From NCBI GenBank assembly GCA_029262755.1, contig JAJCYU010000120.1, positions 1 through 39,609 on the forward strand: a stretch of 39,609 bases of DNA, written 5' to 3'. The position numbers and the translations under genes were made by a program. The notes below the pieces were generated by a model. The model worked only from the letters and a program-made list of their open reading frames with translations. It did no database searches and was not told the DNA's origin. Source of the stretch: Anaerolineae bacterium (GTDB lineage Bacteria; Chloroflexota; Anaerolineae; Epilineales; Epilineaceae). Each line of letters opens with the position of its first letter. Positions within the stretch are counted from its first letter, which is position 1. This document shows positions 3 through 30,803 of the stretch, one piece after another.

Positions 3-593
3 ACGGGCGACCTCGTGATCAACGAGCTGATGGCCGCCAACGAGACCACGCTCGCCGATCCGGAGGGAGAGTTCGACGACTGGGTCGAGCTCCACAACCG
101 CGGCGACGCACCCATCTCGTTGGCGGGCTACTTCCTTACGGACGCGGAGGACGATCCCTTCGCCTACCCGCTGCCCGATCTCACGTTGCCCGCCGGTGGA
201 CACCTCCTCATCTGGGCCGACAACGACCCGGAGCAGGGCCCCGAGCACGCGAACTTCCGCTTGGCTACCTCCGGCGAATCGCTGCTGCTGAACACCGACA
301 CGGAGACCGTCGACCGCATCGACTTCGGCGAGCAGACGACCGACGTGAGCCTGGCCCGCGACCCGGACGGCGGCGCCGCGTGGGTGGCGTGCGCCAGCCC
401 CTCGCCGGGTACGGTGAACGATTGCGCCGGAGGGCCGCCGATCACGCCGCCGGCGACGCCGACCGATGCGCCGTCCACGCCGACGCCCGAAGTCACCGCG
501 CCGCCCGAGTCGACCGCCACGCCAGGCCCGCCGGCGACGTCGACGCCGGACGAGAGCACAATTTGGTTGCCGATCGCGAGGCGGGGAGGCTGA
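3..593 (+). CDS. C-terminal part of a CotH/lamin-tail-domain surface protein (5' end outside window)
   Basis: The reading frame is open from the first complete codon at position 3, so the gene starts upstream of the window. What remains is one lamin-tail domain (LTD), beginning VINELMAANE and containing DDWVELHNRGD, HLLIWAD and a DFGEQ strand. A Pro/Thr linker follows, and the protein ends IWLPIARRGG. LTDs are beta-sandwich domains common in bacterial extracellular proteins. The same LTD, with the shared strings VINEL, NRGD, HLLIW, DFGEQ and SPSPG, forms the C-terminal part of the complete CotH protein at 28473-30803. By that comparison the missing N-terminal part is probably a signal peptide plus a CotH kinase-like domain, which is inference. 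The aromatic-Leu-Pro tail recurs in six other genes of this window. Confidence 0.85.
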   Translation, partial: TGDLVINELMAANETTLADPEGEFDDWVELHNRGDAPISLAGYFLTDAEDDPFAYPLPDLTLPAGGHLLIWADNDPEQGPEHANFRLATSGESLLLNTDTETVDRIDFGEQTTDVSLARDPDGGAAWVACASPSPGTVNDCAGGPPITPPATPTDAPSTPTPEVTAPPESTATPGPPATSTPDESTIWLPIARRGG

Positions 594-732
594 CGGTCGC
601 GAGGGCCGTGCAAGGGAAGTCCGTGTAAGGTGCGCCCGGTCGCCCAATCGCCATCGAGCGACTATCGTCGCGTACGCGAGTACCTTGGCCGACGCGAGGC
701 CGGCACGGCGTGCCCCTTGAGAGAGTGAACCC

Positions 733-1218
733 ATGATCGATCGAAGGCTCCGTACTTTTCCAGCCGCGCTCCCATCCCTGGCCCTTGTCCTGACCCTCGG
801 CCTCGGATTCCTGCTGAGCGCCTGCGCATCGACGGCGGTCGCGCCTGGTTCGGACCTGCCGTCCGAGGACGGTGCGGACGGGACGCTGCCGCGGATCATG
901 GCGGGCCTGAGCGAGGACGCCGCCGGCGTCAACGCCGGAATCTGGCTCGAGGACTTCGACTCCATCGCGGCCTCGGCCCAAGCGATCGCCGATCACCCCA
1001 CGGTATCGGACGAAGAGCGCGCTTCCATCCAGGCGGTGCTGGGGGAGGACATGGCCGACTTCGCTCTCGGCGACAAGACCGTACACGAGACGGCGGTGTC
1101 GTTGGTCGAGGCCGCCAAGGCCCAAGACATGGCTGAGGTCCTGGCCCTCAACGCGAAGATGCAGACCGAGTGCGTGGCCTGCCATACGGAGTTCCGGGGC
1201 CGGTTGGCAGATCGATAG
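733..1218 (+). CDS. Lipoprotein cytochrome c'-like (cytochrome c' / c556 type)
   Basis: This is a 161-residue protein with an N-terminal signal peptide ending in a lipobox, LLSAC, with the lipidated Cys at residue 31. A single haem-binding motif CVACH lies at residues 147-151, ten residues from the C terminus. A C-terminal CxxCH on an otherwise helical domain of about 110 residues is the hallmark of the cytochrome c' / c556 four-helix bundle. The segment GIWLEDFDSIAASAQAIADHP fits its early helices. The likely role is electron transfer or gas (NO) binding at the outer face of the membrane. The start codon ATG is the only good one before the signal peptide, although the upstream Shine-Dalgarno is weak (GAGAGTG). 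It appears to be a single-gene unit, with the DUF1772 gene converging on it immediately downstream. Family assignment is good; physiological role is unknown. Confidence 0.8.
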   Translation: MIDRRLRTFPAALPSLALVLTLGLGFLLSACASTAVAPGSDLPSEDGADGTLPRIMAGLSEDAAGVNAGIWLEDFDSIAASAQAIADHPTVSDEERASIQAVLGEDMADFALGDKTVHETAVSLVEAAKAQDMAEVLALNAKMQTECVACHTEFRGRLADR

Positions 1219-1228
1219 GACGCGCCCG

Positions 1229-2429: not shown

Positions 2430-2433
2430 GAGC

Positions 2434-6611: not shown

Positions 6612-8018
6612 CTATTCCTCGCGGTGGGAAATGGGCAAGTAGATCCGAGCAGCCACCGTGATGGCTGTCGGAGGGGGCGGGGTGCTGCTGGCTGTAGGCG
6701 CCGGCGAAGTGGCGCCATTGGGCGTTGGCGTGGCGGTCCCGGAAGCCGCAGCGGTGCCGCTCGCGTCGGGCGTCGAGGTGGCGCCGCCGCCGCTCGGTGT
6801 CGGGCTGCCGGACGCGGGTTGGGTCATGGTCGCGCTTGCCGTGGCGAGCGGTGTGCCGTTCGCGGGCGTCGATGTAGCGCTTGATACGGGTGCCGGAGAT
6901 GGCGTAGCGGTCGCGGACGCTGCGGGCGACGCGCCGGCGGTCGGTGATGCGGCCGGCGTTGGGGTCGACGTCGGGACCGTCGACGCGGCCGGCGTGGGTG
7001 TCGGCGTCGCGACGGCGGTCGACGACGCGGTCGACGATGACGTTGCGGTCGCGGCCGGCGATGACGTTGCCGTCGCGGTCGGAAGCGATGTCGCCGTAGC
7101 CGTGGCGGTCGACGAGCTCGTGGGGGTAACAGTCGCGCTCGCCGGGCGCGTTGCGGTGGCCGTCGTGGTGGCGGTGCGGGTGGGCGTGCGCGTCGCGGTG
7201 GGGGACAGGGTGGCCGTGCTCGTCGCCGTCGCGGTCGCGGTTGCGGATGGGGTCGACGATGCCGTGGCCGTTGCGGTGGGCGTCGGCGTCGGCGGGTCGT
7301 AGACGATCACGAGGCGGGGGGCTCGCGAACCCGTTGACTCGAAGAGGCGCTCGAACTCGGTGCCGGCCGGGCCACGGACGACGAGCCCGTGATTGGGCAT
7401 GCTGTCGCGGACCCAGTTCTGGGTCAGTACGCGCAGGTCCCACTCGCGCCAGCCGGGTGATGTCCCAACGGAGGTCGTGGCCCACGTGCCCTGCATGGGC
7501 GGCCGGTTGTTCCAGCGGACGGTGCTCTCATCCCAGGTGAGCGTGATGCGCTGCACGACGAGATCAGCGACCGGCTCGCCACTACCCTGCTCGAGCCACA
7601 TCTCCAGCTCGGCGGATACGATGCGCGACTCCTCGGGAATCGCGCTCGTGTCGAAGCGCAGCAACGGATAGCGCTCCCGTCCTGCCGCGTCGATCTCGAC
7701 CGGCCAGGCGGCAGCATTGTTGTAGTTCGTGGCGGGAAACTGCTCGGCCACGTAGGCATCTGCCTCGGGAGTGAGCGTCACCGACTCATCGGCCACAGGC
7801 GCAACCACAGGTGCGAGACCAGGCGCGAGGACTGGGCCGATCGCAGGTGCGGCGAGCGCGACGTGCGGGCGACCGATCGGCGCCGCGACCGGGGCCGCTA
7901 CCGCGACGGAAAGCGCGAAGCCGAGAGCGGCTCGGCCGACTCTCGGCATGTTGGTGGCTGAAAACCCTTCGCGCTGTCTCCGCCTCGACGGGCGAGTCTC
8001 GTTCGTCAAACCATCCAC
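6612..8018 (-). CDS. Secreted DNRLRE-domain protein with very long Thr-rich linker and YLP tail
   Basis: The protein has 468 residues. After a long basic N-region and a signal peptide (about 24-55) comes one DNRLRE-type domain (about 78-240). It shows the family pattern of a DAYV start, NYNNA, RYPLLRFDTSAIP, then W-D-E-S-T-V-R-W-N-N-R-P and a closing RLVIVYD strand. Such domains are beta-sandwich, carbohydrate- or surface-associated modules. The rest of the protein (about 241-458, nearly half) is low-complexity Thr/Ala/Pro/Ser, ending with the tail IYLPISHREE. The listed start is a GTG at 8018; an ATG at 7949 just before the signal peptide is an alternative, and neither has a clear Shine-Dalgarno. 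The same domain opens the metalloprotease at 9924. Likely a secreted or surface-attached protein; no enzymatic residues are seen. Confidence 0.8.
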   Translation of the reverse strand: MDGLTNETRPSRRRQREGFSATNMPRVGRAALGFALSVAVAAPVAAPIGRPHVALAAPAIGPVLAPGLAPVVAPVADESVTLTPEADAYVAEQFPATNYNNAAAWPVEIDAAGRERYPLLRFDTSAIPEESRIVSAELEMWLEQGSGEPVADLVVQRITLTWDESTVRWNNRPPMQGTWATTSVGTSPGWREWDLRVLTQNWVRDSMPNHGLVVRGPAGTEFERLFESTGSRAPRLVIVYDPPTPTPTATATASSTPSATATATATSTATLSPTATRTPTRTATTTATATRPASATVTPTSSSTATATATSLPTATATSSPAATATSSSTASSTAVATPTPTPAASTVPTSTPTPAASPTAGASPAASATATPSPAPVSSATSTPANGTPLATASATMTQPASGSPTPSGGGATSTPDASGTAAASGTATPTPNGATSPAPTASSTPPPPTAITVAARIYLPISHREE

Positions 8019-8835: not shown

Positions 8836-9114
8836 ATGCGTACGACCATGAGTGTTACCGAGTTAGCGCGCAGCCTGGCGGACGCGATCAATCGCGTGTT
8901 GTACCGTGGCGAGCGATTCACGATCCTCCGTGGCGGCAAACCTGTCGCTGAGATCGTGCCCGTGCCGGTTGGGCGCCGTCTCGGCGATCTTCCGGACTTG
9001 CTTGCTTCGCTGCCCCGGTTGGGCAAAGAAGGCGCGGCCTCCTTCGCTGAGGACATCGATAGCGCTCGACACGAGCTTGCCGAAGTGGAGCAGCCTGATC
9101 CATGGGCCACCTGA
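8836..9114 (+). CDS. Phd/YefM-type antitoxin
   Basis: This 92-residue protein has the N-terminal layout of the Phd/YefM DNA-binding domain. MSVTELARSLADAINRV is followed by the strand-turn-strand GERFTILRGGKPVAEIVPV, which closely matches the usual 'f-x-I-x-r-x-G-k-P-v-A-x-l' pattern. The C-terminal half is acidic (DIDSARHELAEVEQPDPW) and would wrap the toxin. GGAGGAG lies five bases before the ATG at 8836. It overlaps the PIN toxin gene by 13 bp, so the pair is translationally linked. It should repress its own promoter through the direct repeat at 8793-8819. The family call rests on pattern, not on a search. Confidence 0.85.
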   Translation: MRTTMSVTELARSLADAINRVLYRGERFTILRGGKPVAEIVPVPVGRRLGDLPDLLASLPRLGKEGAASFAEDIDSARHELAEVEQPDPWAT

Positions 9115-9506
9115 TCGACACGAGCGTGTTCATTGACGCCGAGCGAAAAGGCCTGGACATCCGTGCACGCATCGGCGACAGGACGGAAGACCATTTTTTT
9201 GTCTCTGTCGTGACAGCCAGCGAGTTGCTTCACGGTGTCCATCGCGCTCAGGATAGGGCGACCCGGCAGCGGCGTTCCAGCTTTGTCGAATCGGTATTGG
9301 AGGGCGTACGGCTGCTAGAGGTCGATTTGGCAGTGGCGCGTCAGCACTCCCTGTTGTGGGCGGACCTCGCGTCTCGCGGAATGCTGATCAGTCCCAACGA
9401 CATCTGGTTGGCAGCAACCGCGCTCGCGCACGGTCATGTCTTCGCGACAGCGAATCTCCGACACTTCGAGCGCGTGCCGGGCCTACAAGTTGAGCACTGG
9501 GCCTAG
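9102..9506 (+). CDS. vapC: PIN-domain toxin (VapC type)
   Basis: The protein has 134 residues, the usual VapC length. The PIN-domain metal-binding acidic residues are visible: D6 in LIDTSVFID, E41 in TASELLHG and D100 in NDIWLAATAL. The fourth position is Asn (N118 in ATANLRHFERVPGL), as in many active members. PIN toxins are Mg2+-dependent ribonucleases, often cutting tRNA or rRNA. The start codon lies inside the antitoxin gene. The pairing of a PIN toxin with a Phd-type antitoxin is common. Target RNA cannot be predicted. Confidence 0.9.
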   Translation: MGHLIDTSVFIDAERKGLDIRARIGDRTEDHFFVSVVTASELLHGVHRAQDRATRQRRSSFVESVLEGVRLLEVDLAVARQHSLLWADLASRGMLISPNDIWLAATALAHGHVFATANLRHFERVPGLQVEHWA

Positions 9507-9923: not shown

Positions 9924-12900
9924 ATGAGCCCGCTGTGTGATTGGGATCGAAGGCCGTTGCGATTCGTCGTCCTTGTCCTCGTCCCCGTTCTTGTCATACC
10001 GATGCTGCTCGGAGGCCTCGATGCGTCCGTGCAGGCGCAGCCGTCACTTTTCGAGAGCGAAGCAAGGCCGGTCGATGCGTCAGCGGAGTTTGCCGCGGCA
10101 GCCCAGGTCGTCATCGACCTGCAGCCCGAGAAGGACACGTACGTGTCCGAAGGGTTTCCGACAACCAACTACTGTCAAGACGCGACCTTGCGCACGGGCG
10201 GGCTGTTCTTCGAGAGCCAGACATACAAGGATCGCGCGCTACTTCGCTTCGACCTCACCGGTATTCCGGGCGGCGCGATAATCCAGTCGGCCACCTTGGA
10301 GCTCACGCTTGAAGCGAGTTCCGGTGGCGGCACGTCCACGATCGGCGTCTACCGGATCTTCGGAGCGTGGGACCCGTGCGCGACGACGTGGGATGCGCAG
10401 CCGAGCCACGACGGCTTGTTCGCACAGACGGGTGTGGGCACGGGCGTGCAGGCATACACCTGGGACGTTCGGCAGTTAGTGCAGTTGTGGACCGACGGAA
10501 CCGGCAACTTCGGCATGTTGCTGCGCACTGTGGACGAGACGGAGACCCTGCGTCGACGCTTCCAGAGCGTGGACGTCGGCCAGAGCGTGCCGCGACTACG
10601 TGTGACCTACGCGCTGCCCACGGCCACGGCGACCCGCACGACGCGGCCGACTGCCACGTTCACCGCCACGCCGACGCGGCCGCCGACCCCAACCTCGACA
10701 CCGAGGCCGCTGCCGTCCTTCACCGCGTCGCCGGTTGCAACGTCAACGGCAACGCCGACATCGACCGCGACCGCGACGCCGACGCCAACCGCAACGCCGA
10801 CGATCACGCCGCTGCCAACCCCGACCTCGACGCCGACGCGCACGCCCACTCCAACCGCCACATCGACGCCGTCCGCAACGCCGACGCCGGCGCACACCGC
10901 GACTCCGGTGTTCACGTGCGAGCGCGACGGCTTCGAGCCGAACGACGACGCCGCGTCCGCCGGCCTGATCCCCGCGGACAGTTGGCTCGACGCGTCGCTG
11001 TGCCCGGCCTGGGATCGCGATGTGTACCGCGTGGCGGCGAAGCCGGGCGAGCGGATCCGGGTGGAGCTTCACGGCTTGGACGCCGCGGCATCGGTCGCGC
11101 TCTTCGATCCGGCCGGCGACCTGGTCGCGAACTCGGACAACCCCGACCGTCTGCCGGAGGATCTGCGTGCCGTGGCCAAGATGGAAGGCGAGTACCGCGT
11201 GCACGTCGCGGCGCCGGCTACGTTCGGACAAGCCGTGAAGGGCCAGAGCGGAGGCGACGCGAACGAAACGCCGTACCGCTTGCGCGTCAGCTTGGGCGAT
11301 CCCTTGCTCGAGGCCGTGCCGGCGGTATCGCAAGCGAAAGGCGCCATTTACTTTTCGGGACGTGGGCTTGGGCCGCCGTCCGGCGCCTGCGAGGTGCGGG
11401 CCTATTGGGACGATGCGCGGCCGGAGAACGTGCTCGGTACGGCAGCGATCGATGCCGCGGGATCGTTCTCCATGCAGGTCGCGGTGCCGGATGGTGCGCA
11501 GATCGGCTCGCATCGCATCGTGGCCGAGCAGGTGTGCAGCGACCTGGAGGCGAGTGGCTTCGCGCGTTCCACGGCATCGCGATTCCTCGACGCACAGCCC
11601 GATCGCACCCAGCAAGGCATGCTGCCCCTGCCGGACACGGGGGTTGAGATCGACCCGGAGCTGCTGGAGTGGATGGGCCTGCTGCCGTGCGAACGCAGTG
11701 GTCCGCCTCGGTTCCCCGAGCTCGATCTGACGGTGGCCGACATCGAGGTGACGCAGGCTATCCAATGCCTCGATTCGGAGGAAGGTGACACGGATTGTCC
11801 CGACATCAGCTTGCCGCTGGTGCGGGATCGGCCCACGCTCGTGCGGGTCTACCTTGCGGTGGACGGGATCCCGGAAGGAGAGACCGTGCGCTGGGTCCGC
11901 ACCACGCTCTTCGTGCGGCGACCGGGGGAGGCGGAGCCGGGCGTGACCGTGCGCTCCGTGCACGCCTGGATCGACGTCGAGCGGGAGTGGGAGGGCTTCG
12001 TCACGGATCCGCTCGCGGGGGGCCGCACGACGCGCGAGACCATGTCGGCCACAGCCAACTTCCGGCTACCGGCCGAGTATCTCAGCGGGGACGTGATCCT
12101 CACCGCGCACGTCAACCCGCGCACCGCGCCGCTGTGCGGCACGCCGGAAGAGGACGCGAACCGTGACAACAACGCGGGCGATCCACTCTCGATCTCGTTC
12201 GAAGAACGCAGCGATCTGCGAATCGGCTACGTGCGCGTCGACTACCGTCCGCCGACCGACTGCGGCTTCACGGGCACGCCCGGCCTGCCGGGAGCCACGA
12301 TCCACGACGCCGCGGACTGGCTCTACAAGATCTTCCCGCTCGGTCGTCCTGCCGAGTACGTGCAGGGGCCCGACCTGAGCTTCAATCGGTGCCTGGTCAC
12401 GTGGGACTCCAATCCGGAGGAGCGCGACGACGTGCGCGACGCCGACCGGGCGCTCAACCAGGCGCTCAACCGGCGGTGGAGCCTGCACTTCCTGGCCTGG
12501 CTATTCTCCCTCGGTGGCACGTCGCTGCCACCGGACCAGATCGTCGGCTGGCTGCCCGCGGACGCCGCCGACGCGGTCCGCGGAGGGAAGGCATTGCTCG
12601 GATTTGCGGATCCACGTTGGTACCGGGGCGGCCAGGGTGTCTCCGCTTGGGTGACGGAACCCGGCGGAGGGCGTACGCTGGCGCACGAACTTGGGCACAA
12701 CTTCGGACTCCGGCATTCGAGCCCCGGCGACGAACGCTGGCCCTACGACACCGCGGACATTCAAGAGGACGGCGTAGACGTATTGGAGATGACGGTCATC
12801 GAAGCCGATCGGGCCAAGGACTTCATGTTCGGCCGACGCGAGGACGCCGATTGGATTTCACCTACATCGTGGCGGCGGCTCTTCGATGCCGACCTTCGGC

Positions 12901-13892
12901 CGTCTCGGTTCGCCTTGAGCGCTGCGGACGGGCATGTGTCGGGGTCAGCGGCGGCCGCCTCTACGTCGGCCCAGACTGCTTCCTTGGCCATCATTACCGG
13001 CGAGATCAGCCGTGATGGCGGTGGGGAGCTGGACCCGTTGATCGTCGGTCCGGCCAAGCCGCTGCCTACGGGCCTGAATCCGCCGCCGGGCGAGCAGGCG
13101 TGCGTCGCGTGGTTGGACGCGTTGGGCGCAGAGCGCGCGAGCTATTGCTTCAACCCGCACTTCGAGAGCGCGGAGACCGGTCCGACCGATCGTGTGCCGC
13201 TGCGCCTCGTGCTGCCGCACCCGCCTGACACAGCGGCCGTGCAGCTGCGCTGGCAGGGTCAGCTTGTCGACGAACTGCGGCCGGGTGGAACTTCGCCCGA
13301 CGTGACGCTGCTCTCTCCCAACGGAGGCGAGGTCGTCGCCGGAATGCAGCGCGTGACGTGGGAAGCGAGCGACCCCGACGGCGACCCGCTGCGCTACCAC
13401 GTGCTCGCCAGCATCGACGACGGCGCATCATGGCGCACCGTGGCCACGGACCTCGTGGAGACGAGCACGGTCTGGGATACGACTCGCGCCGGCGGCGGAG
13501 GTGCCGTGCGCCTGCGCGTTGTCGCCACCGATGGCATCCACACCGCGCACGACGACGTCGACGCCGCCTTTGTGATGCCGCGCATGGCGCCTTCGGCGCG
13601 GATCATCACGCCGCGTATGGGATCGGTCTTCGCTCGCAGCCAGGCGGTGCTGTTGCTGGGTAGCGCGCAGGATCCGGAAGAAGGCGCGCTCGGCGGCGCC
13701 AGCCTCCGGTGGACGTCGGATCGCGACGGACCGTTGGGTACCGGCCGACAGGTCGTGAGCCCTGACCTCAGCCGCGGGCCGCACGTCATTTCGTTGCAGG
13801 CAATCGACGCGGACGGCCTCAGCGACGAGGCGACGGTGGAGCTGTTGATCGGCGAGCGGATCTGGATGCCGTGGGCGGGAGGGGGATCGTGA
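9924..13892 (+). CDS. Large secreted metalloprotease with DNRLRE, PPC-like and Ig-like domains
   Basis: The protein has 1322 residues. In order: signal peptide (1-38), DNRLRE domain (about 48-228), Pro/Thr linker (230-330), a PPC-like beta domain (331-455; FEPNDDAASAG, DRDVYRVAAKPGERIRVEL) and a beta-rich region. A zinc metalloprotease domain follows (about 595-990). It has HELGHNFGLRH at residues 921-931, which is HExxHxxGxxH with H921, E922, H925 and H931, and a possible Met-turn at M968 (KDFMFG). This is the metzincin pattern. Two Ig/FN3-like segments follow (about 1115-1310), and the protein ends IWMPWAGGGS. GAGGAG precedes the ATG by six bases. It should degrade extracellular proteins or process surface proteins. 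A specific peptidase family is not assigned, and no propeptide switch Cys was identified. Confidence 0.85.
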   Translation: MSPLCDWDRRPLRFVVLVLVPVLVIPMLLGGLDASVQAQPSLFESEARPVDASAEFAAAAQVVIDLQPEKDTYVSEGFPTTNYCQDATLRTGGLFFESQTYKDRALLRFDLTGIPGGAIIQSATLELTLEASSGGGTSTIGVYRIFGAWDPCATTWDAQPSHDGLFAQTGVGTGVQAYTWDVRQLVQLWTDGTGNFGMLLRTVDETETLRRRFQSVDVGQSVPRLRVTYALPTATATRTTRPTATFTATPTRPPTPTSTPRPLPSFTASPVATSTATPTSTATATPTPTATPTITPLPTPTSTPTRTPTPTATSTPSATPTPAHTATPVFTCERDGFEPNDDAASAGLIPADSWLDASLCPAWDRDVYRVAAKPGERIRVELHGLDAAASVALFDPAGDLVANSDNPDRLPEDLRAVAKMEGEYRVHVAAPATFGQAVKGQSGGDANETPYRLRVSLGDPLLEAVPAVSQAKGAIYFSGRGLGPPSGACEVRAYWDDARPENVLGTAAIDAAGSFSMQVAVPDGAQIGSHRIVAEQVCSDLEASGFARSTASRFLDAQPDRTQQGMLPLPDTGVEIDPELLEWMGLLPCERSGPPRFPELDLTVADIEVTQAIQCLDSEEGDTDCPDISLPLVRDRPTLVRVYLAVDGIPEGETVRWVRTTLFVRRPGEAEPGVTVRSVHAWIDVEREWEGFVTDPLAGGRTTRETMSATANFRLPAEYLSGDVILTAHVNPRTAPLCGTPEEDANRDNNAGDPLSISFEERSDLRIGYVRVDYRPPTDCGFTGTPGLPGATIHDAADWLYKIFPLGRPAEYVQGPDLSFNRCLVTWDSNPEERDDVRDADRALNQALNRRWSLHFLAWLFSLGGTSLPPDQIVGWLPADAADAVRGGKALLGFADPRWYRGGQGVSAWVTEPGGGRTLAHELGHNFGLRHSSPGDERWPYDTADIQEDGVDVLEMTVIEADRAKDFMFGRREDADWISPTSWRRLFDADLRPSRFALSAADGHVSGSAAAASTSAQTASLAIITGEISRDGGGELDPLIVGPAKPLPTGLNPPPGEQACVAWLDALGAERASYCFNPHFESAETGPTDRVPLRLVLPHPPDTAAVQLRWQGQLVDELRPGGTSPDVTLLSPNGGEVVAGMQRVTWEASDPDGDPLRYHVLASIDDGASWRTVATDLVETSTVWDTTRAGGGGAVRLRVVATDGIHTAHDDVDAAFVMPRMAPSARIITPRMGSVFARSQAVLLLGSAQDPEEGALGGASLRWTSDRDGPLGTGRQVVSPDLSRGPHVISLQAIDADGLSDEATVELLIGERIWMPWAGGGS

Positions 13893-16891: not shown

Positions 16892-19800
16892 CTACGGACA
16901 GCCGGGGATGCTCGCCTGGATCTCGGCGTAGATACCGGCCAGGGCGCCCGTGTCCGGGGCGAAGAAGTAGCGGCCCGCGTCGCCCGCGACGTCGGCCAGC
17001 AGCGCCGCGTCGGCGCCCTCGCCCAGCCCGACCGCGTAGACCGTGATGCCGGCCGCGCGCGCCGCGGCGCCCGCGGTGTAGGCGGTGTCCGGCTCGATGG
17101 TCTGCTGCCCGTCGGAGAGCAGAACGATGACGTGGCCCGCGCCGGGGCGGCCCTGCTCGGCGAGGACGCGCGTCGCCGTGGTCAGGCCACGGTCAATGCG
17201 AGTGCCGTTGCGCGCCGCGATGCGCGCGACGGCGGCCTCAAGCGCGCCGCGATCGTCCGTCATGCGTTGCACGACCGTTGCCTCCGTCGCGAAGTCGACG
17301 ACGGCCACGCGGTCGTAGTTCGTACGCAGGTCCGTGTTGTCGATGAAGCCGCGCATGCTGGCCTTGGCCGCGGCCAGCTTCTCGCCGCTGCCCTCGGCCA
17401 TCGAGGAGGAGACGTCGACGACGAGCGTAATGTCGAAGCGACGCTTGACGGGGAAGCAGGCGGCGTTGCCGGTCCAGGGAAGGTAGATCGCGACCGGCTC
17501 CGGTGTGGGCGTCGGCGGCAAGGGGGTCTGGGTGGCCGGCACCGGGGTGGCGGTCGGCGTTTCGGCCGGCGGGATGACCTCAAGTTGTGGGATCGGGAAG
17601 GTGAGCGTTTGGGCCTGGCCCCAACCGTCGGTGAACGCGGCCACCAGGGAATCGGCGATCGGCATCGTGCCGCCGACCTGGGGCTCGATCGCGACACCGT
17701 AGGCGCCGCCGTTGAAGCCCATCTCCGGTTGGGTCCATGCGAGATTGGGCGCGCTCCATACACCATCGCCCGTGCCGACGATCGTTGCCTCGTCCGGTGT
17801 GATGTCGGCCGGGACCTGGTAGGTCAGCGTGATGTCCGTGGCCAGGTTGGCCGGCGGCTCGTAGAGCACCATGCGGCGGTGCGCCTCGGCGCTGCCGAAG
17901 AGGGCGTCCTCGTCGCTGGAGGCGAGGTCGAAGGCGCCGAAGCTGTTGATCACGATGATCGTGACGCCGTTCTGGCGCAGCAGGAGCGCGGTGTCCTCCG
18001 CGGGCGGGATGCCCTGGCATTGGCCGGGAAAGAACTCGTTCTCCGGGTTGCAGTAGTCGGCGTTGAGGATGACGAGCACCTTGCGGCGGGTGTCGTCGTC
18101 GAAGAGCGTGAAGGCTTCCTCCATGCCGTCCTTGAGGCGCTGTTTGACGTTCTCGTTGGGCGGGTTGAAGCGGGTGATGTTCTCGGTGGCCTCGAAGTAG
18201 GCGTCGCGGTCGTTGGTCAGCGGCAGGTCGACGGTCGTGCCCGTGTAGAAGGACACGATGCCCGCCCGGTGCTTGCTGAAGTTCACGCGGCTGACGAGCT
18301 GCTTCATCTCCGTGATCAAGGTGCGGGCCGGATCGACGCCCTGCTGCAGGCGGCCGAAGTACGGCACGGTAACCACGATATCGGCCGGCTCTTCGAAGAT
18401 GCCGCACTTGCCGAGCATCGAGATCGAGATGGCCGAGGTGGCGCCGAGGTCGAGCGTGGTCGGCGACGCGGTCGTCTCACCCACGAACTCGCAGGCGCCG
18501 TCGCCGGGGACCGGCAACACCAGGCGGTCGGAGGAGGGCGCGAAGACCGTGATCAGGCTGGACTGTGCGTCCGCGACATACACGCGGCCGCTGCCGTCGA
18601 CGGTGAGGTCGGAGAGCGTCGTGGGATCCGAGAAGTCGAGCGGGCGGCCGTCCAGACGGGCGGTGATCGTACCGTCGTCGGCGTAGCGTTCGATGGAGCC
18701 GGGCTCGCGCAAGACGTACACGGCGCCGTCGGGCGACGGCGGGCCGCCTGCAACGCGGCGTGCGTCGAAGGCGACGGGCACATCGACGATCGGCGTGCCG
18801 TCGGGGGCCATGATGCGCACCAGGTCCTCGAAGTCATCGAGGGCGAAGATGCGGCCGTCCGTGGCCACCTTGAGGTCCGTGTACGGGTTGGCGCTGCCGT
18901 CGTCCGGTAGCTCGATGGGCGGCTGGAGCTCGCGGCCCTCTTCGTTGTAGCGGACGATCTGCACGTTCTGCGTACGCTGCTGCTCCACAACGTCCACGCG
19001 GACGACGAGCAGCTCCTTCGTGACGTGGTTCCAGGCGAGCGCGGGCACCTCGATCTCCTCGAACGAAGAGACGAGGGGGTCGGTCCAGATCGGCTCGATC
19101 ACCGTCTCCGTGCCCTGCTGGGAGCGCCGCTCGACGTTCTGGAACCGGCCGATCCCGCCCTCCACGACGAAGTTGCCGCCGGAGCGCTGGCCGTTGAGGT
19201 AGTAGCCGTAGATCTCACCGAGCACGTCGCCGCCCGACGCTTGGATCACTTGGAAGAACTCGAAGTCACCGCCGAAGCTGCCCGACGAGCTGGCGCGCTC
19301 CGACGTGGCCACCTGTTGGCCCTCCAGATCGAAGTAGCGCAGCTGCGCCGAGTTGTCCGACACGAAGAGGTGGTTGGTGCTGGGCATCGTGATGCGGTTG
19401 GGCGCGAAGAGCAGCGGGTTGTCGGAGTTCTCGTTGGACGCCGCTTCCCAGATCGTTTCGACGGACTTCAACGATTCGTCGCCGTACTTCACGATGACCG
19501 GGGTGGTGTCCAGCTCCGTGCGCTTCTCGCCGCAGCGGCCCGTGTTGGGGTCGTTCTGGGCGAGCGCGTAGTAGTCCTGCGTCATGGCGTTGAGGCGGGG
19601 CAGGGTGACGGTGTCCTTGCAGATCGAGCGCGAGTTCGCGCTGGCCGCGATGGCGAAGTCGTAGTCGCGGCCGTCCAAGATGCAGGCCTGCGTCGCTTCG
19701 CCGATGAAGACCTTGTCGCCGCCCATGGCGTTCATGCGCGTCGCGCGGCAGCTGTTATCGCCTTGGGTGTACCTGGGGTTGAGCAGGTCGTAGGACCGGC

Positions 19801-20572
19801 GCAGGGTGAAGGCGGGCGGCGGGGTCTCGCCGCCGAGCTCCTCGGCCGTCGCAAGGTCGAACAGCTGCACGCGCGCACCGCGCTTGTCGCCGACGGCCAA
19901 CACCCGTCCGTCGGGTGAAACGTCGAGGTCGGAGACGTTCGTGAACTGACCGGCGTCTAGCCCGCGCTCCCCGATGCGGAAGAGCTCCTGCCCGCTGAAG
20001 ACGTCGATCACGGAGACGTTGCTCTCGTCCGCGTCGAAGAGGTACACGCGGCCGTCCAGGGAGGCGGCGATGCTGGTGGCGTTGATGTCCTCCCACTGCC
20101 CGGCGTAGCTGCCGTCCATGCGATACATCACGACCCGCTCGACGGCCGGGTCGAGCACGTACAGGCGCTCGGCGGAGAAGGGGAAGCCCGGCACTGTCGG
20201 ATCGGGTCCAATAGCGAGCTTACCGACGCGGCCCAGCTGCTGCGGGAAGCCGCCCATTACCCCGAAGGGCGTCGAGAAGACGCCGGTGGGAAGCAGACGG
20301 TGCACGCCCCCGATGCCTTCATCCGCGATGAACACGGTGCCGTCGCGCGAGAAGACAAGGTCATTGGGCGACTGGAACAGGCCCTCCGCCGTCGAATCAC
20401 GCACCGGCCATTGGTCGACCATCTGATAGGCGAGCAGCGATTCGGTCTCTTGGGCGGTCACCGCATCCGTGCGGGGCAGTGCAACGGCGGCGCAAACGAG
20501 CGCGATGAGGGTGGCGGCCACGGCAGATGCACGACGTGGTGACAGAGTATTCCAAGGCAAACGAGGAGACAT
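16892..20572 (-). CDS. Secreted beta-propeller/vWA protein with a second, degenerate vWA-like domain
   Basis: The protein has 1226 residues. After a signal peptide (about 1-42) comes a long NHL/beta-propeller-like region (about 45-690) with repeats such as SPDGRVLAVGD and SGRVYVADAQSS. A vWA-like segment (about 715-890) has the right strand order (AGIVSFYTGTTVDLPL, RKVLVILNAD, GVTIIVIN) but no DxSxS metal site. A Pro/Thr linker and the motif IYLPWTG (1029-1035) follow. A canonical vWA domain (about 1045-1226) has the metal site D1053-V-S-S-S, NGTRIDRG and LLSDG. vWA domains bind ligands through a metal ion, so this is probably a surface adhesion or scaffold protein. The ATG at 20572 has GAAAGGA seven bases upstream; the longer frame to 20806 is rejected. 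A 15-bp minisatellite lies just upstream of the ribosome binding site. Confidence 0.85.
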   Translation of the reverse strand: MSPRLPWNTLSPRRASAVAATLIALVCAAVALPRTDAVTAQETESLLAYQMVDQWPVRDSTAEGLFQSPNDLVFSRDGTVFIADEGIGGVHRLLPTGVFSTPFGVMGGFPQQLGRVGKLAIGPDPTVPGFPFSAERLYVLDPAVERVVMYRMDGSYAGQWEDINATSIAASLDGRVYLFDADESNVSVIDVFSGQELFRIGERGLDAGQFTNVSDLDVSPDGRVLAVGDKRGARVQLFDLATAEELGGETPPPAFTLRRSYDLLNPRYTQGDNSCRATRMNAMGGDKVFIGEATQACILDGRDYDFAIAASANSRSICKDTVTLPRLNAMTQDYYALAQNDPNTGRCGEKRTELDTTPVIVKYGDESLKSVETIWEAASNENSDNPLLFAPNRITMPSTNHLFVSDNSAQLRYFDLEGQQVATSERASSSGSFGGDFEFFQVIQASGGDVLGEIYGYYLNGQRSGGNFVVEGGIGRFQNVERRSQQGTETVIEPIWTDPLVSSFEEIEVPALAWNHVTKELLVVRVDVVEQQRTQNVQIVRYNEEGRELQPPIELPDDGSANPYTDLKVATDGRIFALDDFEDLVRIMAPDGTPIVDVPVAFDARRVAGGPPSPDGAVYVLREPGSIERYADDGTITARLDGRPLDFSDPTTLSDLTVDGSGRVYVADAQSSLITVFAPSSDRLVLPVPGDGACEFVGETTASPTTLDLGATSAISISMLGKCGIFEEPADIVVTVPYFGRLQQGVDPARTLITEMKQLVSRVNFSKHRAGIVSFYTGTTVDLPLTNDRDAYFEATENITRFNPPNENVKQRLKDGMEEAFTLFDDDTRRKVLVILNADYCNPENEFFPGQCQGIPPAEDTALLLRQNGVTIIVINSFGAFDLASSDEDALFGSAEAHRRMVLYEPPANLATDITLTYQVPADITPDEATIVGTGDGVWSAPNLAWTQPEMGFNGGAYGVAIEPQVGGTMPIADSLVAAFTDGWGQAQTLTFPIPQLEVIPPAETPTATPVPATQTPLPPTPTPEPVAIYLPWTGNAACFPVKRRFDITLVVDVSSSMAEGSGEKLAAAKASMRGFIDNTDLRTNYDRVAVVDFATEATVVQRMTDDRGALEAAVARIAARNGTRIDRGLTTATRVLAEQGRPGAGHVIVLLSDGQQTIEPDTAYTAGAAARAAGITVYAVGLGEGADAALLADVAGDAGRYFFAPDTGALAGIYAEIQASIPGCP

Positions 20573-21026: not shown

Positions 21027-22388
21027 ATGAAGAACGCTCAGGCGGAACACGGTCGAAGGGAGCGAGGGCGTCGAGTCCTCGTGTACGCGCTGGTTCTGCT
21101 GGTAGGTGGGGCAGCCGCCCGTGGGGTCGATGCATCCCGCGCATCGCGCTTGGCGCAGGTCGCTACGGCGACCCCCGTGCCCGCCATGTCTGATCTCGAG
21201 TTGGGCGAGGTGGTGATCACGTCTCGGCCGGGCGTCGTGTGTGGGCGGACCGCGAGGGGGTTGTTGTTTCGTTTCGCGAACGTTGGCCACGGGCCGGCGT
21301 CAGGCTTTCTGGTGCGGGCCGGCGATCGCTGGCTCGCGGGTGGTCGTGTGGCGGCCGGAGCCAATGGCTGGGTCTGGTTCGATGGCCTGACATCGACCGA
21401 CGTATTGCGGGTGGTTGTGGACGATGCGGATCAGGTGCTCGAGCTCGACGAAGGCAACAACGAGCGGACGGCGCGGCCGGATGAGGGTCCGATCCCCAAC
21501 TGGCCTACGTGCACACCGACGGCGGTGGCCACGGGTCCGCGGCCGACCGCGACCGCGCGACCGGATCTGCTCGCGGAGATTCTCTCCGTCAGCGTCGCGC
21601 CCGATTGGCGCTGCGAGGACACGCCTGTGTTGGGGCTGCGCGCGCAGTTTCGATTCGAAGACGGTGTGGATACGCCGGCCTTTGTGGTGACGACCAACGG
21701 CACGCCGCGCGCGCACGATGGACGCGCATTCCGCTCCCGCGGCACCACCTGGGTTCCGGGCTTTCGTGCGGAGGGGGGCAACGAGTTGGTCGTCGACGCG
21801 GCGGAGCAGGTCGACGAGGCGGATGAGACGAACAACCATCTGGCGGGGGGCACGCCGCTGCCCCTTCCGACGTTGCCGCCCTGCCCTCCCGGACCCAATC
21901 CCGAGGATCTGCCCGATCTGGTGATCGGAGACACACGATGGGTGCACAAGGGCTTCAACGGCATCTGCATCCCGGCCGACGAGGGTATCGAGCTGCGGCT
22001 GGCGGTGTGGAATCGCGGCGGGTCGACGGCCGGGCCATTCCTGGTCCGCATGCGTACCTCCGGCCGCACATGGCGCGTCGAAGGCCTTGCGCCGGGCACC
22101 GTGGTACGGCTCGAGCCGCAATCGGGCTGGCGTGCAGGCGATTTTCCGCTCGAGATCGAGGTCGATCCGGACAACGAAGTGCCAGAGTCCGACGAAACGA
22201 ACAACCGGCGGTCGTTGCCGACCCCGCCACCCTTCACGCCGCCGCCCTTCTGCACGGCGACACCGACGGGAGGCGGACCGACGGTCACCTCGCGCGTGCC
22301 GACGCCGACGGGTACCGTTCCATCGACGACGGCTACCCCAACGGCCGATCCGGTGTACGTGCCGCTTTCGATTCGGGAGGCGCGGTAG
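21027..22388 (+). CDS. Secreted protein with three CARDB repeats, each with one cysteine pair
   Basis: The protein has 453 residues. A signal peptide (about 13-37) precedes three CARDB-like beta-sandwich repeats (about 56-164, 180-288 and 296-411). Each repeat ends with the family's closing strand and Asn-Asn turn: VLELDEGNNE, VDEADETNNH and VPESDETNNR. The protein has exactly six cysteines, two per repeat (72/162, 196/286, 314/409), spaced 90, 90 and 95 residues apart, which suggests one disulfide in each. A short Thr/Pro linker leads to the tail VYVPLSIREAR. CARDB domains are cell-adhesion-related modules in bacterial surface proteins; no catalytic residues are present. The ATG is preceded by GGAGAGACGCG. 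It is divergent from the vWA gene, and the two may act at the same surface. Confidence 0.8.
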   Translation: MKNAQAEHGRRERGRRVLVYALVLLVGGAAARGVDASRASRLAQVATATPVPAMSDLELGEVVITSRPGVVCGRTARGLLFRFANVGHGPASGFLVRAGDRWLAGGRVAAGANGWVWFDGLTSTDVLRVVVDDADQVLELDEGNNERTARPDEGPIPNWPTCTPTAVATGPRPTATARPDLLAEILSVSVAPDWRCEDTPVLGLRAQFRFEDGVDTPAFVVTTNGTPRAHDGRAFRSRGTTWVPGFRAEGGNELVVDAAEQVDEADETNNHLAGGTPLPLPTLPPCPPGPNPEDLPDLVIGDTRWVHKGFNGICIPADEGIELRLAVWNRGGSTAGPFLVRMRTSGRTWRVEGLAPGTVVRLEPQSGWRAGDFPLEIEVDPDNEVPESDETNNRRSLPTPPPFTPPPFCTATPTGGGPTVTSRVPTPTGTVPSTTATPTADPVYVPLSIREAR

Positions 22389-24724: not shown

Positions 24725-25165
24725 TTAGGCGCCGCGGTCAGCGAGCGGATGACGCCAGCGAAGACCCGGAAAACGGCTGAAGTCGCGGTCCGTGGTGATC
24801 CATTCGCAACCGGACTCGATCGCCAGGGCGGCAAAGTAGGCATCTGGAATCAGGTTCCCCTTCGCGCCCGCAGACGTGCAAAGGCGCTCGAAGATTCCCC
24901 AATGTCGATCGCCGGGGCTCACCTTGACGGATGTCGGTGACATCCGCAAGGAGTGGCAAAAGGTCATTGCAGTTCCCAACGGGCTGGGGGGATCGAATAT
25001 CCGAGAATGGGTGACGATTCGAACAAATCCGCTGAGCACATGCTCCGAGAACGCCCAGGAGGCATTGCCGTTGACTATCTCTTCCACCCAAGTGCGGTAG
25101 GCTGCATGGTCGGGCGCGTCCTCACGGTGCGCGTAGACCAAGACGTTGACGTCCATCAGGATCAC
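24725..25165 (-). CDS. vapC: PIN-domain toxin (VapC type)
   Basis: This 146-residue protein has the PIN-domain acidic set: D5 in MDVNVLVYAHR, E41 in FSEHVLSGFVRI, D108 in IPDAYFAALAIE, and D126 with D128 in TTDRDFSRFPGL. All four metal-site positions are acidic, so it should be an active Mg2+-dependent RNase. It belongs to the VapC subgroup that carries an LLDVNVLVYA-like N terminus. The start is a GTG overlapping the antitoxin stop by four bases (GTGA), with an in-frame ATG three codons later. Partner: the RHH antitoxin immediately upstream. It is not closely similar to the PIN toxin at 9102, so the window has two independent toxin-antitoxin loci. Confidence 0.9.
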   Translation of the reverse strand: MILMDVNVLVYAHREDAPDHAAYRTWVEEIVNGNASWAFSEHVLSGFVRIVTHSRIFDPPSPLGTAMTFCHSLRMSPTSVKVSPGDRHWGIFERLCTSAGAKGNLIPDAYFAALAIESGCEWITTDRDFSRFPGLRWRHPLADRGA

Positions 25166-25416
25166 GGCTTCGTATCGTCCGTATTCATGAGGTCAAGGAG
25201 CGCTGCGCCGTCGTCCAGATCGACTCCCGGAAAGAGGCCGTTGCCGCCCACGGTGGCTAGCCGTACAGCGTCGCGCGGAAGCTTCACCTGCTTCTGCCGG
25301 GCAAGGAGATTGCGAAGAGCTTCCTCGATCAGCGAAGTCATGGTGCGGTCGGTCTCAGCCGCAAGGACTCTGAGCTCTTTGAGCAAGCCGTCATCGAGTC
25401 GAATCGTCGTACGCAT
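25162..25416 (-). CDS. vapB: Ribbon-helix-helix antitoxin (VapB type)
   Basis: This 84-residue protein begins MRTTIRLDDGLLKELRVLAA and continues ETDRTMTSLIEEALRNLLAR, the strand-helix-helix pattern of the RHH/MetJ-Arc fold. The C-terminal half would bind and neutralise the PIN toxin encoded by the overlapping downstream gene. There is no Shine-Dalgarno. The -10 box lies only seven bases before the ATG, so the mRNA is probably leaderless. A perfect inverted repeat covers the promoter and is the expected operator for the RHH dimer. Confidence 0.9.
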   Translation of the reverse strand: MRTTIRLDDGLLKELRVLAAETDRTMTSLIEEALRNLLARQKQVKLPRDAVRLATVGGNGLFPGVDLDDGAALLDLMNTDDTKP

Positions 25417-25452: not shown

Positions 25453-25501
25453 CCGTCTGCATTATGGATCCAACTCGTCCCAACCCAATAGCGCTCACGC
25501 C

Positions 25502-26587
25502 CTACCGCTCCGCCACGAAGCGGTCCACCTCGGCGCGCATCTCGGGTTCGCGCATCTTCGCCTCCACGGCTTCGGGGCGCAGGCTTAGGGCCGGGATCTC
25601 CGCGGTCACGTCGAGGATGAAGTCCGCGCGTTGCCAGAGCAGGTCGACGAGATCGCGCACGTCCGTTTCGGCGCGTAGGGCGGCGTAGTCGTCGGGGTGG
25701 TTCTCGCGGGCGTGGCGGAGGAAGAATTCCACGTAGAGCATCATCGTGACGAGGCCGTCGCGGTAGCTGGTGCTGCCGCGCAGTTGGTCGTGGATGCCGT
25801 AGCCGGTGAACATGGAATGCGTGTAGGCGTTGAACTCGTCCAGCAACGTGAAGAAGTTCTGGTCGCCGGACTGGCCGGTCAGGTACGTGTCTTTGTATTG
25901 GTTATCCAGATCGCCCGTGATGTATGGGGCGATCTCGGAGCGAGGGAAGGTGTCGATGTTGGGCACAAGGCGCGTGTCGTCTGCGCGGATCGCGTAGTAG
26001 TACTCGCGGAAGAAGGTGGGGAGCGCGCCTTCCTGGAAGCCGAGTTGGTGGTCCATCTCGTGGACGGCGACCTGGAGTGCGCGCAGCAGGCCGTCGAAGG
26101 AATCGCGTTGGCCGCCGGTCCAGATGGCCGCGTTGGTCTTGCTGTCGTCCAAGGCCGTGACGATGAAGTGACCGGTGGCGTAGCGGCGTTCGAGGACGGC
26201 CAGCATCGTCTCGTACCAGCGGTCGGCGTCGTAGCCGTCGCGCAGGTCGTCGATGGACGCGAGGTCCGTCAGCGCTTCGCTGTAGGGCGGCTTGCCCGGC
26301 GTGGCGGCGGCCGTGGATGTGGCGGTCGGAAGAGGCGGCGGCGGGGGCTCGCGGTCCGGCGTGGCGGTGGGGCCCGTGGGTGGCCGCGACGTCGGCGCGG
26401 GCGCGAACGCTGAGTTGCCGGCGTTCCGTGCCACGAGCGGCACGAACAGCCAGGTGCGCTCTGGGTCCGGATCCGGTTGCATCGGCGGCGCGGCACCCGC
26501 GGGCGGTGGGGCGAGTGAAAGCGCGATCGTCAGGCCGACGGCAGCGAGTGCGAATACGCCTTGTTTGAGGGATGAGTCCGACGTCAT
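25502..26587 (-). CDS. Secreted protein with HExxH motif (possible metallopeptidase of unknown family)
   Basis: The protein has 361 residues. A signal peptide (about 1-33) is followed by the segment TWLFVPLVARN, a Pro/Thr-rich linker and a helical domain (about 105-361). That domain contains H176-E-M-D-H180, an exact HExxH zinc motif, in LQVAVHEMDHQLGF. Seventy-one residues later E251 in LLDEFNAYTHSMF could be the third ligand, as in gluzincins. I do not recognise the family, and an inactive or non-peptidase role is possible. The ATG at 26587 has CAGGAG seven bases upstream, so the frame extending to 26662 is rejected. It is divergent from the MFS gene. The aromatic-x-Pro motif found at the C terminus of other secreted proteins here lies near the N terminus instead. 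Confidence 0.7.
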   Translation of the reverse strand: MTSDSSLKQGVFALAAVGLTIALSLAPPPAGAAPPMQPDPDPERTWLFVPLVARNAGNSAFAPAPTSRPPTGPTATPDREPPPPPLPTATSTAAATPGKPPYSEALTDLASIDDLRDGYDADRWYETMLAVLERRYATGHFIVTALDDSKTNAAIWTGGQRDSFDGLLRALQVAVHEMDHQLGFQEGALPTFFREYYYAIRADDTRLVPNIDTFPRSEIAPYITGDLDNQYKDTYLTGQSGDQNFFTLLDEFNAYTHSMFTGYGIHDQLRGSTSYRDGLVTMMLYVEFFLRHARENHPDDYAALRAETDVRDLVDLLWQRADFILDVTAEIPALSLRPEAVEAKMREPEMRAEVDRFVAER

Positions 26588-26837: not shown

Positions 26838-26853
26838 CGCCCCCGGAGCCTCC

Positions 26854-28314: not shown

Positions 28315-28472
28315 CGGGCTGGGGCTCGATGAATGGGGACCGACGTGCCAGCCAAGAGTACGGCGCCGAGATGCCGAATCGATAACAGTTCCTTGATACG
28401 CTTCCGGCGGCGGTGACGAGGATTGCAACCGCCCCATCCCCCACGACTCGACGAGCCTGTAGGAGCGCCACG

Positions 28473-30803
28473 ATGCGTCGCTACTCGATTCCCACCGTCC
28501 TGCTGCTATTCGGCGCGACGGCCGTGTTCGCCATTGCGCCGGCTTCCGTCGAGCAATCGGTCGCCGCTGCGCCGGTGGATTCGGTGCCGGCCGGCGTCGC
28601 TCCCATCGCCGCGGCGCCCGACGGCCTGCTTCAAGATCCACCGGCCGACGAAGAGCCGGAGCTCTACGACGACCAGGTCGTCCACGACGTGCACTTCACG
28701 TTCGAGTCGAGCGATTGGCAATCCCAGCTGCACTGTCCGGCGCGCGGAGGACCCGGGGGGCCAGGCGGACCGGCTCGCCCAACGCCGGAGCCGCCGACCG
28801 ACCTGCCGGCGCGGTTGGAGATCGACGGGCACGTCATTGAGCGGGTGGGCGTTCGTTGTAAGGGCAACTCTTCGACGGGGATCAACGGCCCCAAGAAGCC
28901 GCTCAACCTCACGATCGACTCGTTCGACGATGGGCAGGATCTGTGGGGCTTCGACGTGATCAACTTCAACAACAACTACAACGACCCATCCCAGATGCGC
29001 GAGGCGATCATCCTGTCCATGTTGGGCACGTACATGCCCGTGCCACGCCATTCGTGGGCGCAGGTGCACGTCAACGGCCAGGTTGTGGGGCTGTACCTGC
29101 TCGTCGAGCAACTCGATCGGACGTACTCGGAGGACACCTTCGGTGATGCGGGGATCATGATTCGCGGCGACTCGCCCGACATCATTGCGTTCGAGTCCTC
29201 GACGCTCAATTGGCTGGGCGAGGACGTCGACGCGTACCGTGCCGGGTACGAGGTGAAGGGGCGCAACGCCGACTCGGACGAGGGCTACGAGCTGGTGCGC
29301 GAGCTGACCCGGGCGCTCGATGCACCCGAGAGCGCGGGCGGGCTCGCGGAGGAAGACCTCAACGAGGGGCTGTGGGAGATCCTCGATGTGGATAGCGCGC
29401 TTTGGTACATCGCTGGACATAACATCACGGCCGATTACGACAGCTACTTCGTGGGCAAGAACTTCTTCCTGCACTACGGAGAGCGCGATCCACGCCACCA
29501 CATGATCAGCTGGGATATGGGTCTGGGCTTTGGGCTGTTCCCCTTTATCGTTCCCGGCGGAGGTTTCGGTCCCGGCGGCCCCGGCGGACCGGGAGGGGGC
29601 ACGCCCGTCGAGCGCGTGGATCCCTTTGCGCAGGCGGAGTCCATGCAGCGGCCGCTGATCCGTCGGCTGCTGAGCGTACCGGAGTTCCGCGCCGACTACG
29701 TGGCCCACTACCGCGAGCTGCGCGCGAGCCTGTTCACTCAGGAATGGGTCGGCGCGTTGGGCGCGCGCTACCAAGAGCTCACCCGCGCGGCCGTGACGGC
29801 CGAGGAGACCGCGAACGGCTCGATCGCCGGCGCGTTCACCCTCGCGCAATGGGAGCAAAACCTCAACGAGCCGGTGGAGATCGCCGGCCGACGCGGCTCG
29901 ACAACGGTGCCTGGAATCGTGTCGCTCGTGCGCGAGCGTGGCGCGTTTCTCGACGGGCTGGCGGTCCTGCAGCCGCCGGACATCGACTTGGCGGAGCACG
30001 CGGTCGTGCCCGAGGCGCCGACCTCACGCGACGCGGTGACGTTGGTCGCGCGCTTCGACGGCGGCGACGCGGTAACGTCGGCGCAGCTGCGCTATCGGGT
30101 GCGGGGCGGCGTCGAGCAGCGCGTGCCGATGACGCGCGACGAGGACGGCTCGTGGACCGCGGTCGTGCCCGCGCAGGCGACGGGTCGGACGGTGACCTAC
30201 GCGTTCCGAGCCGAGATCGAGGATGGCCGCGTGACGTTCTTCCCGGCCGCCAACTGGACGCAACCCTTCGCGTACGAGATTGCCGGCGTCACGCTACCGC
30301 GCGAGGAGACGGGGGCGCTCGTCATCAACGAGCTGCTTGCGGACAACGAGGCCGGGCTGCTCGACGAGGCGGATGAAGCGGAAGACTGGCTCGAGTTGTA
30401 CAACCGCGGCGATGAGCCGATCGACCTGGCCGGCCACTTCATTTCCGACGACGCGGAGGATCCGTGGTCGTATGGACTACCGGCTATGAGCCTGTTGCCG
30501 GGCGAGCACCTACTGATCTGGTGCGACGGAGATCTGGATCAGGGACCGCTGCACACCCCGTTTCGCTTGAGTCGCGGTGGGGAGAGCGTGGTGTTGGCCA
30601 CCGCGGACGCCATCGTGGATCAGGTGGACTTCGGTGAGCAGGTTGCGGACGTTAGTTTTGGGCGTGTCACCGATGGCGCCGACACCTGGGACCAATGCGC
30701 CACGCCCTCGCCGGGGGCGGCCAATGCGTGCACGGGCTATGAAGCGCCGCCCGAGCCGCCGGCGACCTGGAGCCTGTACTTACCCCGAGTTCTGGACGAA
30801 TAA
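28473..30803 (+). CDS. Secreted CotH kinase-like protein with C-terminal lamin-tail domain
   Basis: The protein has 776 residues. A signal peptide (1-25) precedes a CotH domain (about 68-440). It shows VRCKGNSS, a KKPLNLTID segment, YLLVEQLDRTY and the metal-site Asp D348 in SWDMGLGFG. CotH proteins have an atypical protein-kinase fold, and the spore-coat CotH phosphorylates coat proteins. A beta domain (about 500-605), a lamin-tail domain (about 614-755) and the tail LYLPRVLDE follow. Two Gly/Pro insertions (RGGPGGPGGP at 91-100 and GGGFGPGGPGGPGGG at 362-376) interrupt the CotH domain. The ATG at 28473 has TAGGAG about seven bases upstream. The LTD is clearly paralogous to the partial gene at 3-593. 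No sporulation genes are nearby, so a surface-protein role is likelier than spore coat. Confidence 0.85.
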   Translation: MRRYSIPTVLLLFGATAVFAIAPASVEQSVAAAPVDSVPAGVAPIAAAPDGLLQDPPADEEPELYDDQVVHDVHFTFESSDWQSQLHCPARGGPGGPGGPARPTPEPPTDLPARLEIDGHVIERVGVRCKGNSSTGINGPKKPLNLTIDSFDDGQDLWGFDVINFNNNYNDPSQMREAIILSMLGTYMPVPRHSWAQVHVNGQVVGLYLLVEQLDRTYSEDTFGDAGIMIRGDSPDIIAFESSTLNWLGEDVDAYRAGYEVKGRNADSDEGYELVRELTRALDAPESAGGLAEEDLNEGLWEILDVDSALWYIAGHNITADYDSYFVGKNFFLHYGERDPRHHMISWDMGLGFGLFPFIVPGGGFGPGGPGGPGGGTPVERVDPFAQAESMQRPLIRRLLSVPEFRADYVAHYRELRASLFTQEWVGALGARYQELTRAAVTAEETANGSIAGAFTLAQWEQNLNEPVEIAGRRGSTTVPGIVSLVRERGAFLDGLAVLQPPDIDLAEHAVVPEAPTSRDAVTLVARFDGGDAVTSAQLRYRVRGGVEQRVPMTRDEDGSWTAVVPAQATGRTVTYAFRAEIEDGRVTFFPAANWTQPFAYEIAGVTLPREETGALVINELLADNEAGLLDEADEAEDWLELYNRGDEPIDLAGHFISDDAEDPWSYGLPAMSLLPGEHLLIWCDGDLDQGPLHTPFRLSRGGESVVLATADAIVDQVDFGEQVADVSFGRVTDGADTWDQCATPSPGAANACTGYEAPPEPPATWSLYLPRVLDE

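Follow-up and report, generated by a model that had tools for sequence, protein, structure and literature searches.

Tagged proteins encoded on the contig

The window analysed here, the entire contig C120 (39,609 nucleotides; JAJCYU010000120.1) of an Anaerolineae genome with an assembly total of 5.06 Mb (GCA_029262755.1), encodes seven proteins that share a short aromatic-Leu-Pro tag. We identify it as a relaxed version of the YLP-box of Chloroflexota, specific to this lineage and mostly below the reach of the NCBIfam models of the motif. All seven motifs of the original prediction, which had been made from the letters alone, were located at their positions in the window sequence: five are C-terminal (593, 6612, 13892, 22388 and 30803), one precedes a vWA domain and one follows a signal peptide. 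Secretion, claimed for all seven proteins, is supported by a signal peptide-like N terminus in six, and the seventh gene, ending at 593, is truncated by the contig start.

The domain make-up of the tagged proteins varies. IWLPIARRGG (561..590, + strand) closes a lamin-tail-domain (LTD) protein (PF00932; gene ending at 593) and is preceded by a Thr/Pro linker, as is VYVPLSIREAR (22353..22385, +) at the end of a CARDB protein (coding sequence, CDS, 21027-22388). On the opposite strand, IYLPISHREE (6615..6644, -) follows the long Thr/Pro linker of a CBM96/DNRLRE protein (CDS 6612-8018). LYLPRVLDE (30774..30800, +) ends a CotH and LTD protein (CDS 28413-30803), and IWMPWAGGGS (13860..13889, +), a weaker match to the consensus without Arg four residues after the Pro (P+4), ends a 1322-residue CBM96 and metzincin-like protein (CDS 9924-13892). 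The two displaced copies are both on the minus strand. IYLPWTGN (17465..17488, -) lies in a protein with NHL and vWA domains by profile search (CDS 16892-20572), with a Thr/Pro linker on one side and on the other a C-terminal, Cys-flanked vWA domain (PF00092; 16928..17434, -; flanks ACFP ... IPGCP-end). LFVPLVARN (26423..26449, -) lies about 47 residues into the product of CDS 25502-26587, near the signal peptide, and a Thr/Pro linker comes after it; this product has no assigned family and gave a weak metalloprotease match in the profile search. A Thr/Pro linker, said to precede most tags, was confirmed before three of the five at the C terminus (593, 6612 and 22388) and before the vWA copy. 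Relatives of the CotH protein, paralogues as well as orthologues (genomes G000, the window's own, G001 and G002), retain the terminal box though their linkers are unrelated.

Shape of the tag and catalogued models

A consensus was drawn from 42 tails of two genomes, the Pro being fixed by the search. It describes an 8-residue element, [ILV]-[YWF]-L-P-hydrophobic-small-x-R. Upstream of the Pro, position -3 is I, V, L or A, position -2 is Y, W or F, and position -1 is L (31/42) or M; downstream, +1 is mostly hydrophobic (W, L, I, Y) and +2 mostly small (A, S, G, V). P+4 is Arg in 29 of the 42 tails and the final residue in 15. The core first proposed, [ILV]-[YWF]-[LMV]-P-x, is therefore too short, as Arg or Lys at P+4 belongs to it. 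The collected C-terminal tails stop at most 12 residues past the Pro, the majority within 7, and contain no transmembrane helix, as had been claimed. Elsewhere in the phylum the commonest form is VYLPLVxR.

The motif itself is already known. Canonical tail-bearing proteins of Chloroflexota exposed two NCBIfam models, NF050076.1 (sort_motif_YLP) and NF053834.1 (ultrashort_CTERM), both titled 'YLP-box putative sorting motif-containing protein', with scores at or near the cut-off and no machinery named. The original prediction, which named no assigned function for such tails, needs amending in that they are already catalogued. Literature searches with YLPLV-type strings and 'YLP-box' found no paper describing the motif. 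Among the matches listed for the own genome (5 Mb), two sites exceed the cut-off of NF050076 and nine that of NF053834, and no site of either model lies on contig C120. Likewise, the tag went unmatched when the full-length window proteins and their last 25 residues were compared with NCBIfam and Pfam. These missing matches reflect divergence and are largely a limit of sensitivity, short motifs being weak for HMMER filters, rather than non-membership. The tag shares with the catalogued box a short Tyr-Leu-Pro core at the very end of proteins that Chloroflexota export, and agrees with it in the terminal placement of five of the seven window tags, in the P+4 Arg and in its phylum (28 of 29 pattern matches, see below). 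It differs in that this lineage has Trp or Phe about as often as Tyr and a varied P+1, and in that the copies before the vWA domain and after the signal peptide fall outside a C-terminal model. What is new here is the relaxed lineage variant, the recurrence of displaced copies and a candidate partner.

Distribution of the tag

To follow the tag across genomes, the DNA pattern [IVM]YLPL[IVM]xR-stop was run against 257 Gb of sequence covering 84,980 species. It gave 29 matches, 28 of them labelled Chloroflexota (Chloroflexaceae, Chloroflexales, Roseiflexus, Viridilinea, Anaerolinea, Ardenticatenaceae, Thermoflexales, Caldilineales, Aquidulcis and other Chloroflexi) and one labelled Gracilibacteria. 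Chloroflexota make up a few per cent of such sequence collections. That such tails recur in this phylum, as originally stated, is borne out. The exception, 'Candidatus Gracilibacteria' contig L128, was discounted as Chloroflexota sequence that had probably been mis-binned, because it has a GC content of 60%, a coverage of only 1.8 and a YLP-box gene that stops with TGA, a codon that Gracilibacteria decode as glycine.

A looser pattern was run on both strands of 301 Chloroflexota genomes against a reversed-pattern control, with the table summed by hand and class names deduced from the named matches of the large scan. Matches exceeded the control in family f53 (126 vs. 2; 19 genomes), f63 (17 vs. 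1; 7 genomes), f89 (8 vs. 0; 2 genomes) and the own class (29 vs. 0; 38 genomes), and did not exceed it in the other 235 genomes (19 vs. 21). The tag, in pattern form at least, is thus confined to part of the phylum. A variant ending in Lys or Asn contributes chiefly in f63 and the own class.

Association with exported proteins

Enrichment at C termini was determined on a random 623 kb of the own genome (53 contig pieces and the window), with genes and signal peptides called by a simple script of our own, so that the export classes are heuristic. The tail motif [ILVMFATY][YWFH][LMVIF]P within the last 16 residues was found in 15 of 133 exported and 3 of 188 cytoplasmic proteins (Fisher p = 2.4e-4); shuffled tails gave a mean of 1.4, and none of 2000 shuffles reached 15. 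Genome G002, of the same family, behaved alike, with 10 of 75 exported vs. 2 of 110 cytoplasmic proteins, a shuffle mean of 0.8 and the observed count reached in 0 of 2000 shuffles. Some cytoplasmic-class genes with tail matches are truncated or misclassified exported proteins and some are decoys; at least one of the three in the own genome resembles a misclassified fragment. The check proposed with the original prediction, exported against cytoplasmic proteins and shuffled tails, thus returned a clear excess at exported C termini in two genomes. Extrapolated from the 623-kb sample, the own genome may encode about 150 tagged proteins.

Linkers and displaced copies

In the sampled proteins the motif follows 12 of 25 terminal Thr/Pro linkers, and 10 of 136 internal ones (7.4%) vs. 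1% of random windows of exported proteins. The order linker, box, a few residues and Cys-vWA-Cys near the protein end recurs in seven genes of the family of the window genome, the window gene and six more. A box after the signal peptide was found in CDS 25502-26587, L189:1602-4298 and G271 L131:14360-15610, and in a distant genome a box, IYLPLVFR, leads into an LTD domain (L059). Many displaced copies retain Arg, Lys or Asn at P+4. Since displaced copies recur, a free C terminus is not required. The suggestion that the two displaced window copies speak for docking is strengthened by their belonging to recurrent sets, a pattern more in keeping with a peptide for docking or recognition than with a strictly C-terminal cleavage signal.

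A PorU-like C25 peptidase as candidate partner

Profile searches for Peptidase_C25 were made in 30 Chloroflexota genomes, 16 with boxes (box-positive, a heuristic choice) and 14 without (box-negative). The peptidase was detected in 15 of 16 box-positive vs. 0 of 14 box-negative genomes, a co-occurrence that is phylogenetically confounded, as the two sets belong to separate families and probably to separate classes; a hypergeometric calculation by hand gave about 1e-7 per genome and, counted by family (7/8 vs. 0/8), about 7e-4.

Our reading of the C25 sequence rests on one protein, that of genome G271 (L135:1302-3950), which has a signal peptide and the C-terminal end PLYRIDVPLVQR. It matches the PorU model NF033707 with an E-value of 7e-50 and 169.6 bits, below the curated cut-off of 420, and PDB entry 6za2 with an E-value of 3e-14. 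The PorU match spans the middle and the C25 domain, including part of the N-terminal region, and His and Cys occupy plausible catalytic places (YAGHG, SMTCLTG). The gene is the last of a three-gene same-strand run (L135:1302-8657, -), together with genes for a DUF11 protein anchored by a canonical LPLTAG-helix-RRR end and for a 1118-residue DUF11/isopeptide-type protein that ends in a YLP-box (YRYFIPLIGR). By comparison of coordinates, YLP-box matches also lie inside C25 frames of G000 (C304), G202, G147 (C2) and in the second copy of G271. In two f63 genomes a C25 gene and a sortase gene are about 1 kb apart (G147:C1:5931505-5933870 and G108:C241:19403-21790).

The original prediction had advised looking for an enzyme or membrane family that co-occurs with the tag. 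The best match is the PorU-like C25 peptidase of the gingipain/PorU family, which we regard as the leading candidate partner. PorU itself carries a C-terminal domain (CTD) (PMC11285876), and a tag of its own on the C25 protein is therefore compatible with an enzyme role, and also with a cargo role.

Comparison with known sorting systems

The YLP-box resembles the CTD/PorU step of the type IX secretion system (T9SS) of Bacteroidota in that it marks the C terminus of Sec-exported cargo, most of it beta-rich, and in that it co-occurs with a PorU-like C25 peptidase that is itself tagged. It differs in size and form, with about 8 residues that often end a low-complexity linker, whereas the CTD folds as an Ig-like domain (PMC11285876). 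The hosts also differ, Chloroflexota being reported to lack the beta-barrel assembly machinery (BAM) and lipopolysaccharide (LPS) pathways. Their envelope is described as multilayered, with a debated outer layer and no BAM genes (PMC7332563, PMC13319060).

With PEP-CTERM/exosortase, GlyGly-CTERM/rhombosortase and MYXO-CTERM/myxosortase the box shares a lineage-confined C-terminal tag on many proteins per genome; those tags are tripartite, with a helix and a basic tail (PMC11980579). Sortases and exosortases were searched for in 50 genomes picked by tag count (25 box-positive and 25 box-negative). Exosortase was found in 4 of the 50, and in the 30 genomes of the C25 search we found neither SLH domains (0/30) nor a rhombosortase above the model cut-off (0/30), so exosortase, rhombosortase and SLH anchoring were dropped as the machinery. 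The own genome is among those with an exosortase (G000:C141:15141-15884; also G002:C21 and G020:C162), which most box-positive genomes lack, and a PEP-CTERM-type system may exist beside the YLP-box there.

Helix-less LPxTG-like ends (LPETGAR, LPTTGR, LPVTGE, LPEIG...) were seen in the own class on exported-type LTD/OB-fold homologues from several families (L047, L048, L050, L053, L066, L069), and related LTD proteins end in YLP-boxes.

Other genes of the window

A histidine-kinase-like protein (33634-36030) with FHVFLP near its end was discarded as a decoy, because ATPase domains of this kind usually close with such a strand. Judged from the translations, two probable type II toxin-antitoxin pairs lie at 8836-9506 and 24725-25416, with PIN-like toxins and Phd-like and ribbon-helix-helix-like antitoxins.

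Proposed role and alternative explanations

We consider it somewhat probable that the YLP-box is a short linear sorting or retention motif on Sec-exported proteins that is held by a surface partner. The motif, [ILV]-[YWF]-[LM]-P-[hydrophobic]-[small]-x-[R/K], would be presented at the free end of a flexible linker or, alternatively, directly before a terminal domain or directly after the signal peptide. After export, a surface partner would recognise it as an extended strand and retain the protein on the envelope, so that the probable effect of the tag is to hold its carriers at the cell surface. We infer both recognition outside the cell and surface retention. The PorU-like C25 peptidase, if it is the partner, would bind, cleave or transpeptidate the box; otherwise it would be cargo. 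The initial idea of a sorting or anchoring tag is thus supported in part: exported proteins do carry a genuine tag, a speciality of Chloroflexota that NCBIfam lists as a putative sorting motif.

Several points weigh against this proposal. The co-occurrence with C25 is confounded by relatedness, the box-positive genome G009 has no detected C25, and the C25 proteins might be nothing more than cargo. One would not expect a T9SS translocon of the outer membrane (SprA, PorV), because BAM is reported absent (PMC13319060, PMC7332563), and no localisation data were found for any YLP-box protein.

The alternative that survives best, possible though clearly less probable, is that the box is a processed signal: a surface PorU-like C25 peptidase would recognise it, cut, and join the protein to a surface molecule. 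This would be the C-terminal-signal logic of T9SS with an 8-residue tag. The near-complete C25 co-occurrence, the peptidase's homology to PorU, the T9SS sortase, with both His and Cys present, its own box, comparable to the CTD on PorU (PMC11285876), the proximity to a sortase gene in G147 and G108, and the LPLTAG-anchored and YLP-box neighbours in G271 are all in its favour. Cutting the internal copies, however, would free the vWA domain, and where P+4 is the final residue, cleavage after that Arg would remove nothing; moreover, the data also fit C25 as ordinary cargo. A further reading, which we hold to be rather unlikely, is that the box is an ultrashort helix-less signal read by a PorU-like C25 peptidase, the two forming an independent relative of the sorting step in type IX secretion.

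Less likely again is a purely structural end-strand or protective linker cap, serving folding or protease resistance and with no sorting role. Its hydrophobic residues alternate in a beta-like manner, several positions are tolerated and disordered linkers often end in a box, but such a cap would hardly explain confinement to part of one phylum, a conserved P+4 Arg and retention across unrelated folds.

That the tag is a degenerate, helix-less substrate of ordinary LPXTG sortases seems quite improbable. A Leu-Pro core near an exported C terminus is common to both, sortase PF04203 was found in 25 of 25 box-positive vs. 11 of 25 box-negative genomes, and helix-less LPxTG ends, such as LFLPTTGR-stop, occur on some of the LTD proteins in the class. 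Against this, the listed tails do not have Thr-Gly at P+2/P+3, they lack a transmembrane helix and a basic tail, and internal copies are tolerated, the displaced ones leading into soluble domains. The hybrid [YF]LPxTGR-stop gave five matches, not above the reversed control, and this route to sortase was dropped for lack of enrichment; box-positive G271, besides, has its separate canonical LPLTAG substrate. Chance matches of hydrophobic-aromatic-Pro in Pro-rich tails can be dismissed for practical purposes: a four-residue motif is common and decoys such as histidine-kinase ends are known, but the shuffles never reached the observed counts in either genome and the reversed pattern stays near zero across the box-positive families.

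Significance for the Chloroflexota envelope

Envelopes of Chloroflexota are multilayered, and their composition and the anchoring of their proteins are still under study. A lineage-restricted tag on possibly some 150 proteins, by extrapolation, is a handle on how these bacteria dress their surface, and the PorU-like C25 candidate makes the question of the YLP-box machinery experimentally approachable. If the box is indeed an ultrashort signal read by this peptidase, box-bearing proteins, the peptidase included, would be fixed to the unusual outer layer of hosts reported to lack BAM and LPS, and boxes before a Cys-flanked vWA domain would act as a built-in variant whose processing sets that domain free or exposes it.

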